Shown here piece by piece: positions 2,654 to 17,767 of a stretch of DNA of 28,924 bases (position 1 is its first letter; the number at the start of each line of letters is the position of its first letter). Source of the DNA: [Phialemoniopsis] sp. UDSM-2020 (Eukaryota > Ascomycota > Sordariomycetes > Thyridiales > Thyridiaceae); assembly GCA_018873225.1 (NCBI GenBank), contig JAEILZ010000011.1:1-28924 (forward strand), read 5' to 3'. A program made the translations under genes and the position numbers. The notes beneath the pieces were generated by a model, which was given only the letters and a program-made list of their open reading frames with translations, was not told the DNA's origin and did no database searches.

Positions 2654-3547
2654 TTAGAAACGATTTATAAATTGGTCAATTAAAGGTATAGAATTTTCCA
2701 CAGTATCTCCTATAAGACTTCCATATATTCTAAAAAAATCATTTAAAGTAGTAGAAAATTCAGTATAACTCTGTAAAAACCTTTCGTAGCTCTCGGAATA
2801 AGCAGTATATATTTCATAACGCTCTAGAATGTTTCTATATGTTTCATCAGTCATAACTGTTTTATGTTCTAATTGAAATTTTTCTAAAATTTCGTCTAGT
2901 CTAGTTAATTCACGATCTAGGGTAACATTATATTCAGATTGTATAATATCACGCTCGTCTAATATGAGATCTAATTGATGAGTAAGATCATCTAATTTTT
3001 GAATTGTATTTTCTAAATCTTCAATTAAACTAGTCACATCCGTTTTTTCGTCAAGGTATTCGGGACTTTGTCTAGGATCTATATGATCATATTTAGCTCC
3101 TTTGATTAAAGAATCCATTTTAGATTGAGAACTTTCTGTTAGAGGATTCTCGCTAGTTTTAACCTCATCTAAAGTAGAACGGAACTTAGTAAAACTAAAA
3201 TATATAACAGGAAGTCCTATACTTATAAGTACAATACCTCCCGCCAAAAGCATAACTCCATGTGGATGACTCTGCATTCAGCTTTGTGCTCAATCTGTTA
3301 TGTTAAATATATCACGTGTTTCTGTTATTAATGCAGCTTTTTCTCTTGTTAAAGTTCTTCCAGATTCTTGTATAGTTTCTTTAATAGTTTCTTCAGCTAG
3401 TTCTTTTGTTGTATCCATTACTGAACGTACATGATCAGGGGATTCAGGTCCTAAGTTTAAACGTCTAGTTGTACTAAATCTTCTAATATTTAATGTTCCA
3501 ACTTTGTTTGCACGTGAACTCTCGCCAATGATAAATAAATTATTCAT
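2654..3547 (-). CDS. ORF A: unknown single-span membrane protein with helical domain, nad6-derived start
   Basis: This is one continuous 297-codon frame in genetic code 4; two in-frame TGA codons (residues 86 and 90, both Trp) split it only in the standard code. The family is not recognised. The first ten residues, MNNLFIIGES, are identical to the NAD6 N-terminus and come from a duplicated copy of the nad6 leader and start. A basic stretch follows with R-R-F-S-T at residues 22-26, resembling an MPP-type presequence cleavage site. One hydrophobic helix spans about residues 97-118. The remaining 180 residues are charged and helical, with likely coiled coil around 150-215. It lies between trnW and trnI, where the related gene order has no protein gene. 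Consistent use of TGA for Trp and an intact frame suggest that it is expressed in the mitochondrion. Its function is unknown. ORFs B and C share the same plan. Confidence 0.82.
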
Positions 3548-3590
3548 AATTTTTTTAAATAGATTAATAAACCCCGGTAAGGGAAAGAAA
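3522..3590 (-). repeat. Duplicated nad6 leader and start, copy at ORF A
   Basis: These 69 bases match 4417-4485 with about four mismatches, at an offset of 895. The copy contains the sequence upstream of nad6, including a CCCCGGTAAGGGAAA block, plus the ATG and first codons. It gives ORF A its start codon and probably its 5' untranslated region. Confidence 0.9.
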
Positions 3591-3600
3591 GTCCTTAGAC

Positions 3601-3671
3601 CAAGAGCACTCAGATTCGAACTGAGAAATTGGAGGTTGAAGCTCCCTATTTTACCATTAAATTATACTCTT
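3601..3671 (-). tRNA. trnW: tRNA-Trp (anticodon TCA)
   Basis: The acceptor AAGAGTA/TGCTCTT, anticodon loop CTTCAAC and discriminator G are present. Anticodon TCA reads both TGA and TGG, which directly supports genetic code 4. In Hypocreales this gene usually sits next to trnP; here ORF A, trnI and trnS lie between. Confidence 0.93.
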
Positions 3672-3702
3672 ATAAACTATTTTTTGAAATAATTTAATGG
3701 TG

Positions 3703-3776
3703 TAGGAAAGATGGGATTTGAACCCATAACCTATCGTGTGTAAGACGATTGCTCTACCAATTAAGCTACCCTCCCT
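3703..3776 (-). tRNA. trnV: tRNA-Val (anticodon TAC)
   Basis: The acceptor AGGGAGG pairs with CTTTCCT, and the anticodon arm is ATCGT-CTTACAC-ACGAT. It starts 6 bases after the nad6 stop. Confidence 0.93.
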
Positions 3777-3782
3777 TGAAAT

Positions 3783-4442
3783 CTAATTTTTTTGTTTAAT
3801 AGTTATAACTATAGCTCCTACCATAGCTAATAATAATATAAAACTAGCTAATATAAGTCACATATTATAATTAGTATACATTATATTTCCTATACTTGTA
3901 ATATGACCAGTTTCTGCTAAATTACCATCTCATATTTTACTAGTAACAAATGATATATCATTATTATTAATTTCAAGATTATTTAAGTAATTATTACTGT
4001 ACTTATTTATAGATATATTATATAATATATTATTTAAATAGTTATTGTAATTACTTAAAATTGCGATGTCATAAGGGAGTATCTGAAATAAAGGATAGTT
4101 AAATAAAACCGCAATAGTTATAGCTAAAGGAATACTGTTACTAGTATTACTTTGTAATTCACTTATTCTAATATTTATTAGCATTAAAATAAATAAAAAC
4201 AGAATAGATACAGCTCCTATGTAAACAATTAGGTAAGATAACCCTATAAAACTAAGACCTAATATAATTAAATAAGAAGAAATTCCTGCAAATAAACCTA
4301 TTAAAAATAAAACAGAAATAATGGGGTTTTTACTAATAATAACAAATATTCCACATAATATAACAACGAGGGAAATAATATTTAATATCTCGGCTTTATA
4401 ACCATTCGTAAAACTTTCGCCAATGATAAATAAATTATTCAT
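3783..4442 (-). CDS. nad6: NADH dehydrogenase subunit 6
   Basis: This is a membrane-arm subunit of respiratory complex I. The frame gives 219 residues in code 4, with the Trp TGA at 3930 read through. The N-terminus MNNLFIIGES is followed by several hydrophobic helices and the typical Sordariomycete ending (NIMYTNYN, then LLLAMVGAIVITIKQK). The stop is TAG at 3783. A block of about 45 residues rich in Asn (roughly residues 120-165) separates the conserved helices. The gene lies between trnS(gct) and trnV. Its leader and first ten codons have been copied in front of ORF A. Confidence 0.96.
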
Positions 4443-4485
4443 AATTTTTTTAAATAGATTAACCTACCCCGGTAAGGGAAATAAA
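4417..4485 (-). repeat. nad6 leader and start, source copy of the duplication
   Basis: This is the authentic nad6 start and upstream sequence, of which 3522-3590 is the near-identical second copy. The rest of the nad6 upstream spacer (4486-4605) is AT-rich and shows no gene. Confidence 0.9.
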
Positions 4486-15628: not shown

Positions 15629-15658
15629 TAAATTAAAGTTTCCTGCTGATTGAATTGC

Positions 15659-15684
15659 AAAAGTGGCAAAATTCCGCCTCTTTT
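15659..15684. other. 26-nt hairpin interrupting the intron reading frame
   Basis: The arms AAAAGTGGC and GCCTCTTTT pair at 8 of 9 positions around an 8-nt loop. Upstream of it the exon-1 frame is open for 32 codons. Immediately downstream the LAGLIDADG frame reads A-I-Q-S-A-G-N-F-N. The two frames join exactly if these 26 bases are absent, which points to an inserted element. Confidence 0.72.
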
Positions 15685-15780
15685 AAATAAATAGATTGTG
15701 CCGATTATAATAAATATAAGTGGACTATTTATACAAATTTTTCCAGCATATAGCAAGATTTTTTCCGTGAACACAAGTTT

Positions 15781-16695
15781 ATCCACGTCTAAACCAACAG
15801 TATACATGTGATGAGATCAAACTATAAATCCTAATATACCAATAGACATCATTGCATAAACCATTCCTATATATCCGAAAACTGCTTTGCTTGAGTTAGC
15901 TGAAATAACAGTACTTATTATACCAAAACCTGGTATAATTAAGATATAAACTTCAGGATGTCCGAAAAATCAGAATAGATGTTGGTATAAAATAGGGTCA
16001 CCTCCTCCAGCTGTTTCAAAGAATGATGTATTAAAATTTCTATCTGTTAAAACCATTGTTATTCCTCCGGCTAAAACAGGTAATGATAATAATAATAATA
16101 CCGCTGTTATAACAACAGCTCATCCAAATAAAGCTAATTTGTGTAATCTTATACCTGGAGTTCTCATGTTAACTATTGTAGTTATAAAGTTTATTGCTCC
16201 TAATAAACTACTAACCCCTGATAAGTGTAATGCAAATATAGCTAAATCTACACTTGGTCCACTATGACTTTGTACTCCTGCTAATGGAGGGTAAAGAGTT
16301 CAACCTGTACCTACTCCACCTTCTATACATGCAGAGAATATTAATAATAATAAACTAGGTGGTAGTAATCAGAAACTTATATTGTTTAGTCTAGGGAATG
16401 CCATATCAGGTCCTCCTACTAATAATGGAAGTAAGAAATTACCAAAACCTCCTATTAATGCAGGCATAACCATAAAGAATATCATTAATATGGCGTGAGC
16501 TGTTATAATACTGTTATATAATTGGTTATCTGCTATATATTGAACACCTGGTCCACTTAATTCCATTCTTATTAAAACAGAAAATGCTGTTCCTAATAAT
16601 CCTGAAAATATAGCAAATATTAAATATAATGTCCCTATATCTTTAGCATTTGTAGATAAAAATCATCTTTCAGTGTAAAGAGATATAGATGACAC
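15781..16695 (-). CDS. cox1: Cytochrome c oxidase subunit 1, exon 1
   Basis: The first 305 codons of the catalytic subunit of complex IV (533 residues with exon 2). The start [20 protein letters not shown] is conserved, but no ATG precedes it; GTG (16693-16695) is chosen, with TTA (16696-16698) an alternative. Heme and copper ligand regions are visible: [20 protein letters not shown], and [15 protein letters not shown] with the Cu-B His-Tyr pair, then [11 protein letters not shown] at the splice junction. An ORF finder sees only 16369-16566 because Trp is TGA. Confidence 0.95.
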
Positions 16696-16802
16696 TAAAA
16701 AGCTAGTACTCCTATTTTGAATAATTATTATATAATAATTATTACTTACTTTTAATTTCACAAAACTAAAAGTAGTTAGTAAATTATTAATAGATATTTA
16801 AA

Positions 16803-16874
16803 AGAGCTATGAAGGAATCGAACCTAAAACAAGAGATTTGCAATCTCCGTGTAAAACCATTTACAGCATAGCCC
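16803..16874 (-). tRNA. trnC: tRNA-Cys (anticodon GCA)
   Basis: The acceptor GGGCTAT/ATAGCTC and anticodon arm GGAGA-TTGCAAA-TCTCT are present. The T-stem is weak, with two mismatches. It lies between ORF B and cox1; in related genomes cob-trnC-cox1 are adjacent. Confidence 0.88.
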
Positions 16875-16924
16875 TTATATACACATAAAAATATGTATAT
16901 TTTTTATTATTTTTAATAGGCGTC

Positions 16925-17554
16925 CTAAATCCCAGGCATAAATCAAGCATCTATTCCGGTATCTTGCCCAATACTGACAAAATCCATTCAAGATATTATA
17001 AATTCCCTAAAAACAGTATTAAATCAATTAGAACTTTCTGTAATACGATTAGATAAACTAATATATGCATCTAATTGTCCAGTTCATCCTAAAAAAGCTC
17101 TTGAATCTTCATTTGTAACTAAAGTAGCAAAATCAGCACCAAAAGCTTTTAATCCTTCATTCATATTACGTATATCCATACGTAAAGCAGAATTTCGTTG
17201 AAAAAAATCAAAGTAATAATATATATTATTCTCGACAATTTTTCGTAACATATTTTCAATTTGTTCTGCTCTTTGTAAGTATAAATTTATTTTTTCTGTA
17301 AAATTCACTTCAGAAAAAATAGTCTGAAATGTCTCTTTACTTGTTTCTATCTCTTGGGGAGACATATTTTCAGTATTAGGTATCCCATCTTGAGCTAAAT
17401 CCCTAACAAATCCAAATGATTCAAGTATATAGGGTGTAGCTTTTTTCATAAATAGTGCAGCTAAAACACTTAAAACTATAACAGCCGCATTTTGTGGTGT
17501 AACATAAAAAGTACTTTGTATTTGTGATACAACTGCCGGACCAGATGATATCAT
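16925..17554 (-). CDS. ORF B: unknown single-span membrane protein downstream of cob
   Basis: The frame from ATG 17554 to TAG 16925 gives 209 residues in code 4, with four Trp TGA codons in the C-terminal part. The family is not recognised. A hydrophobic helix at about residues 22-36 (NAAVIVLSVLAALFM) ends in KK. It is followed by a hydrophilic, largely helical domain with probable coiled coil around residues 80-130 and an aromatic-rich end. The frame continues open upstream past the ATG into the end of cob (see 17555-17767), and that part carries an R-T-F-S-T motif, so the real start is probably earlier. The plan (basic leader, one span, helical domain) matches ORFs A and C. It lies between cob and trnC. 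Function unknown. Confidence 0.78.
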
Positions 17555-17767
17555 TAAAGCTTCACCTCCTTCCGGTAAAGGAAGTGAATGTTGTGCTATA
17601 CGTACTATAGTATGAACAGGTTCTGTGACTTCAGTTACGCTTCCTGTAGGGCTTCTTAAACTCCTTGAAGTACTAAATGTTCTTTTTTGTGAGAAAACAT
17701 TATTAGAAATCTTTCTTTGAGTATATTTGTTTTTATTATTTTTTAAATTACTTCACGGTCCCACCAA
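17555..17767 (-). other. Probable N-terminal extension of ORF B, overlapping the cob 3' end
   Basis: This is an open, in-frame extension of ORF B without an ATG. From a TTG at 17765-17767 (a GTG follows) it encodes about 71 residues, starting with a Lys/Asn-rich, non-acidic stretch and then K-R-T-F-S-T-S-R (Arg codon 17681-17683). The upstream in-frame stop is TAA at 17783-17785 inside cob. About 20 bases overlap cob in the +1 frame. The start codon is uncertain. Confidence 0.5.

Follow-up and report, generated by a model that had tools for sequence, protein, structure and literature searches.

Why should open reading frames (ORFs) of a mitochondrial genome carry what looks like the cleavage site of an imported protein? 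Mitochondrially made proteins need no import-type leader, and the sites of the mitochondrial processing peptidase (MPP) commonly take the form R-x-Y/F, with the cut before Ser. The question is raised by three ORFs (A, B and C) on contig JAEILZ010000011.1 of [Phialemoniopsis] sp. UDSM-2020. Its 28,924 bases (hereafter the window) are a whole ascomycete mitochondrial DNA (mtDNA), a circle of about 28,801 bp, and form contig C3 of the assembly that we searched (44.18 Mb, 11 contigs). All three ORFs are on the minus strand, all are open in genetic code 4, and in each an R-x-F/Y-S-T site is reached after 22-29 codons. The reading that we favour from the sequences, with about even confidence, is that they are accessory genes of the mtDNA, each for a protein that crosses the inner membrane once and whose leader is putatively trimmed by MPP.

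ORF A (2654..3547, minus) encodes 297 amino acids from an ATG and consists of a leader, RRFST (3470..3484), one hydrophobic span (3188..3256; residues 98-120) and a charged domain. ORF B (16925..17767, minus), of about 280 codons, and the end of cob overlap but are read in different frames; the B frame is open from 17782 to 16925, with RTFST at 17669..17683 and a moderate hydrophobic span, the core of which (17447..17488) was chosen by hand. ORF C (7868..8803, minus) has 311 codons if the first is taken to be the ATT overlapping the stop codon of atp6, in a frame open from 9013 to 7868; RSYST lies at 8726..8740, and hydropathy places its span at 8528..8599. The motif scan agreed with the first-pass annotation on all three motifs (RRFST at 3484, RTFST at 17683 and RSYST at 8740), and the one hydrophobic region that it had described after each was also found, at 73 residues from the motif Ser to the span start in A, 62 in B (to the chosen core) and 44 in C. 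The best 19-residue Kyte-Doolittle windows were strong in A (2.39) and C (2.43) and moderate in B (1.82). Acidic residues in the leader number one in A and none in B or C. The long charged helical domain once ascribed to all three describes A well (Asp, Glu, Lys and Arg make up 32% of the domain after the span), B less well (23%) and C poorly (19%, with 21 Pro+Gly per 219 residues).

In the six frames of the window, R-x-F/Y-S-T occurs four times, namely in A, B, C and an inverted relic of A (at 4542; see below). When the residues of each ORF were shuffled 50,000 times, the motif fell within the first 60 residues at a frequency of 0.0027 (A), 0.0016 (B) and 0.0011 (C); the motif was picked post hoc, and the frequencies were not multiplied. 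A distant fungal mtDNA contig (24.9 kb; L019+L020) had the motif in 0 of 14 open frames of at least 150 codons, counted with a locus boundary that splits one gene in two.

How translation of these frames might begin differs among the three. The first-pass annotation had given a start for each; that of A (ATG at 3547) stands, and those of B (TTG at 17767) and C (ATA at 8833) fall within cob and atp6, respectively. A second in-frame codon of B, GTG at 17764, is also within cob, and the ATG at 17700 is out of frame with B. The overlap of the C ATT with the atp6 stop reads TAATT, comparable to the TAATG by which nad4L and nad5 overlap in the window. We propose that B and C would be downstream cistrons of cob and atp6, with translation coupled to that of the upstream gene and beginning around its overlapping stop codon, in a manner that resembles a possible nad4L/nad5 coupling in the same genome. 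Another explanation is that B and C are made as frameshift fusions with Cob and Atp6, which MPP then cuts at RTFST and RSYST. Both frames do continue without a stop into the gene upstream, past whose end neither has a usual start codon before its motif, and PMC8835746 describes some precursors that MPP cuts internally (Arg5,6). However, by the coordinates B would need a +1 shift and C a -1 shift, which implies no common signal (slippery sites were not searched); an ATT start at the atp6 stop is simpler for C, and A has its own ATG and leader. We regard such fusions as highly improbable.

The composition of the frames is that of mitochondrial genes. In the frames as annotated, all 11 of the 11 Trp codons of A-C are TGA, one of them within the B-cob overlap; GC content at third codon positions is 0.10-0.15, inside the core-gene range (0.085-0.176); and the codon adaptation index is 0.57-0.69 against a core range of 0.59-0.82, A being slightly under that range, and never exceeded 0.44 when the nucleotides of B were shuffled 300 times. 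Codon log-odds were then computed after training on the bodies of A-C together with rps3, orf319 and the LAGLIDADG ORF; some of the sequence scored in A and B, but none of that in C, had also served for training. The stretch of C from 8803 to 8627 scored +0.25 bits per codon with 0 stops in 59 codons, against -0.35 and -0.53 in the other same-strand frames (7 stops each) and -0.45, +0.09 and -0.30 in the antisense frames. From motif to span (17683-17504), B scored +0.30 against -0.86 and -0.81 in the other same-strand frames, and its stretch before the motif +0.18 against +0.12, a difference too small to decide. The 30 values from intergenic controls ranged from -0.79 to +0.17. The coding signal appears to span the motif in all three ORFs, in C from the atp6 stop onward, which favours translation. 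Motifs outside the translated region in B and C would have told against the first-pass annotation; codon scores speak for their inclusion in both, and C has no usual start before its motif.

ORF A is chimeric, and its start is common to nad6. Positions 3517..3590 (minus), in frame with A, are 93% identical over 74 nt to 4412..4485 (minus), and the repeat consists of 43 nt of nad6 5' untranslated region (UTR), the start codon and the first ten codons; beyond it, A runs into sequence of its own. We take nad6 as the donor because it is a core gene. In addition, an inverted relic of the A codons around RRFST lies at 4525..4582 on the plus strand, upstream of nad6 (81% over 59 alignment columns with 3443-3498; E 2e-7). 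The nad6 repeat and the relic together imply that the 5' end of A was copied or moved within this mtDNA. The earlier idea of leaders derived from host genes is borne out for A only (nad6 5' UTR plus ten codons); for B and C the repeat comparison listed no duplicate of this type. A transfer RNA (tRNA) with anticodon TCA ends at 3600 (called selenocysteine by ARAGORN; tRNA-Trp in code 4), and tRNA-Ile begins at 2634 on the other flank; a transcript of A punctuated by these tRNAs would have a nad6-like 5' UTR. A tRNA-Ser(GCU)-like sequence, recognized by eye, adjoins the relic at about 4610-4690 (minus); it received no ARAGORN call and no Rfam match at the gathering threshold.

The inverted relic and the duplicated nad6 leader, which indicate that A was moved or copied, also bear on the possibility that A and B, and possibly C, are remnants or cargo of mitochondrial plasmids or mobile elements without host function. 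Accessory mitochondrial genes of related fungi have partly been ascribed to plasmids (PMC3562157). Against this origin, Pfam gave no DNA or RNA polymerase, reverse transcriptase or endonuclease match in A-C, and A, the sole ORF tried, had no match in plasmid records. These records are presumably mostly bacterial. We consider this origin quite improbable.

Are the three ORFs related to one another, or to anything else? The protein database search, which retains only candidates with exact words in common, gave one match for A among 1482 candidates (P0001; 65% identity, 67% of A covered) and two for B among 926. P0003 is identical to B along its own length; P0002 is 84% identical over 91% of B and keeps SQKRTFSTSRSLR unchanged, so that RTFST is intact in a relative, as the first-pass annotation expected of a conserved motif. 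The P0002 record starts M-SQKRTFSTSRSLR and matches B exactly from the S onward; note that its start position is the choice of a gene caller. Both A and B align without internal gaps to these relatives, which come from public assemblies. Between A and B, BLASTP gave E 4e-4 in a single comparison, and the Smith-Waterman score of 73 was reached by none of 3000 full shuffles and by one of 3000 local ones, in an alignment that begins at RRFSTTRRL/RTFSTSRSL, takes in the span and reaches the C-terminal part; A and P0002 scored 62, a value reached in 1 of 3000 full and 9 of 3000 local shuffles. Counting against A-B homology, P0001 versus B is at chance level (869/3000 full, 1736/3000 local), P0001 versus P0002 is weak (216/3000 and 700/3000), and hhalign gave P 0.066. 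For the control pairs, A-rps3 was reached in 48/1000 and 78/1000 shuffles and the rest in at least 156/1000. A and B are probably distant paralogs on this sequence evidence. C is at chance versus both (252/1000 full shuffles for A-C, 623/1000 for B-C), which rules out the single sequence family that had been suggested for the three and leaves the A-B pair as its suggestive part. In each of three genomes holding L014, L015 and L018, 0 of the 3 ORFs were matched in a search without positive control, and a shortened C query again had no match in one of three distant genomes.

The import-type leaders themselves suggest a further origin, in which old nuclear genes for imported proteins were captured by mtDNA and fully recoded, the leaders being inherited MPP signals. 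The leaders do resemble fungal import signals, the nuclear genome of this fungus has a frame with a related site, and full codon amelioration is what would be expected after an old event. On the other side, a six-frame search of the 44.2-Mb assembly found no nuclear relative at E thresholds of 0.001 for A and 10 for B and C, searches with the DNA of B and C gave no homologous nuclear gene either, no family match exceeded its cut-off, and the first ten codons of A are nad6-derived. In the family searches with hidden Markov models (Pfam, NCBIfam and PHROGs), A-C gave weak partial matches only, none above the curated cut-off (for example, A with Takusan, E 0.0065, 16.8 bits, cut-off 28.1; B with SpmdActasePaiA, E 0.00043, 20.1 bits, cut-off 250). 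The PDB sequence search gave 0 matches for A and C, and for B solely icaR (E 0.32 and 0.47); viral contigs held no relative of A, B, C or cob, and bacterial and archaeal genome contigs no relative of B. Of the proposal that nuclear genes were recoded, the TGA-Trp part is borne out in every Trp codon, and the nuclear source did not turn up. A recent capture is unlikely because all Trp codons are TGA and codon usage is mitochondrial, and with no nuclear relative it is unsupported. An old one we hold to be distinctly unlikely. The nuclear and plasmid proposals both concern origin and are compatible with membrane proteins that are trimmed by MPP.

The one credible nuclear match of C is a 54-bp mtDNA insert with 98% identity on contig C6 (G000:C6:1395144-1395197), which matches the middle of C and is probably a young nuclear mtDNA fragment; a nearby frame resembles phosphoserine transaminase. 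A second nuclear match (E 1.18, 25% identity) is at chance level.

For the reading as accessory genes of trimmed membrane proteins, we envisage that the A-C proteins would be synthesised in the matrix or at the inner membrane, that the leader would be removed at R-x-F/Y by MPP and then trimmed to Ser by an Icp55-type activity, and that the remainder would stay anchored in the inner membrane by its one span. For MPP sites, PMC8835746 describes Arg at -2 or -3, and a nuclear M16-family frame of this fungus with a related site speaks for the reading as well. A would be freed from its transcript by the flanking tRNAs and would initiate on the leader duplicated from nad6; its trimming would remove the entire nad6-derived stretch (ten residues) and about 13 residues more. 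The charges flanking the spans weakly hint that the large domain may face the matrix in A and B and the intermembrane space in C.

Several results weigh against this reading. The B frame has no usual start codon before the motif outside cob, and the C frame has no ATG, GTG or TTG before 8626, thus none before its motif. In the 21 codons of C before the motif, an antisense frame (+0.38, one stop) scores above the sense frame (+0.25), and the leader of A scores just +0.04. C differs from A and B in span-flanking charge and domain make-up, and had no relative among 1367 candidates. The helical moments of the leaders are not above those of shuffles (722/2000 in A, 489/2000 in B, 787/2000 in C), a test that the leader of a nuclear control also fails (417/2000 shuffles reach its value). 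The AlphaFold models, mostly helical, have a mean predicted local distance difference score (pLDDT) of 45.6 (A) and 37.9 (B), too poor for comparison. Finally, the check on nuclear presequences is thin: a looser pattern was applied to ten loci in two families, and RGFAT, which ends the clear presequence of an M16-family frame (L027) beginning MASRRLALNLAQGLRGRAGRSAAGLTRGFAT, was the sole clear N-terminal case; the strict form RPFST occurred in the L028 frame alone, and in the ATP synthase gamma frame the sequence is AAGYAT, which lacks Arg. The position of the first usual start of C after its motif and the higher antisense score there, together with the post hoc choice of motif and the chance-level comparisons of C with A and B, could also mean that the motif is a coincidence or a selective reading, the three being unrelated orphan ORFs that each have one hydrophobic region, with at least the motif of C untranslated. 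That explanation must contend with a motif found elsewhere in the six frames solely in the A relic, at chance frequencies of 0.001-0.003 per ORF, with its retention in the relative of B, and with a codon signal that covers it in C. We judge it unlikely.

What do A-C resemble among known systems? They fit the description of accessory ORFs, being open code-4 frames outside core genes and introns, with B and C overlapping the ends of cob and atp6. They are in this respect like the genes labelled 'hypothetical' in the mtDNAs of Aspergillus and Penicillium (PMC3562157), which supplement the core set, are in some cases restricted to close relatives and have no similarity in public databases; the main text of that paper has 0 occurrences of presequence or transmembrane, and the likeness is one of description. 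Accessory mitochondrial ORFs in related fungi are known already (PMC3562157); the unusual features here are that three carry an import-type site and that A borrows the start of nad6. With nuclear-encoded presequence proteins A-C share R-x-F/Y-S-T 22-29 residues in and few acidic leader residues; they differ in lying in mtDNA, where an import signal is unneeded, and in that no nuclear gene was found. No presequence-bearing mtDNA ORFs were found in the titles and abstract beginnings of the literature searched, a body outside which most subscription journals fall.

Plant cytoplasmic male sterility involves chimeric open reading frames, and the layout of A-C is similar: in A, the 5' leader and first codons of a resident gene are fused to a membrane-protein frame, and C and B are placed just downstream of atp6 and cob. 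Unlike the plant ORFs, A-C are fungal and have MPP-type sites, and the likeness is one of layout. By this analogy A-C might be a fungal counterpart of male-sterility genes, that is, selfish mtDNA genes that use core-gene leaders and 3' ends for translation, have the borrowed part shed by a host peptidase, and affect mitochondrial inheritance or mating through their membrane proteins. We consider this very doubtful; were it true, the nad6 capture and relic of A would be a caught step of the process. If the leaders are truly cut, proteins encoded in mtDNA are among those that the matrix processing peptidase matures, and a chimeric gene can shed the part borrowed from a respiratory protein, which would give a compact organelle genome a simple way to gain and express new genes.

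As for the genome in which these ORFs reside, positions 1-123 and 28802-28924 are identical, which indicates a circular contig written with a 123-base overlap. The standard genes are on the minus strand; rnl is divided between both ends of the window, with rps3 (a VAR1-family match) amid its parts. The names cob (17748..18917, minus, immediately upstream of B), atp6 (8803..9645, minus, immediately upstream of C), nad6 (3783..4442, minus) and most others are presumptive assignments from the encoded proteins. An atp8-like frame was found at 9722-9886. The possibility that one of the ORFs stems from a lost atp9 was ruled out, the gene being present at 22507-22695 between nad3 and cox2. This order we take to be reminiscent of Eurotiomycetes. 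The nuclear assembly has an atp9-like stretch (G000:C5:1132457-1132621) that contains a single in-frame TGA and is perhaps a copy of mtDNA. In the Aspergillus and Penicillium comparison, P. marneffei is the only species with atp9 between nad2 and cob (PMC3562157). A tRNA at 16803-16874 (minus), between B and cox1, with an Rfam match and no ARAGORN match, is probably tRNA-Cys. The conserved N-terminus of cox1 lacks an ATG, and a GTG at about 16693-16695 (minus) may be the start of this gene; if real, it would mean that unusual start codons occur in this mtDNA. A 319-codon frame (orf319; 13718-14677, minus) with several hydrophobic stretches and no Pfam match is flanked by the LAGLIDADG ORF and by exon 2 of cox1, and the cox1 intron thus seems to hold two ORFs. 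Finally, a cob scan of the bacterial and archaeal genome contigs gave 5 loci, including L014 and L015; these two, filed as bacterial bins (Bacilli and Atribacteria), hold fungal-type mtDNA contigs, an apparent contamination, and their cob is 78% identical to that of the window.

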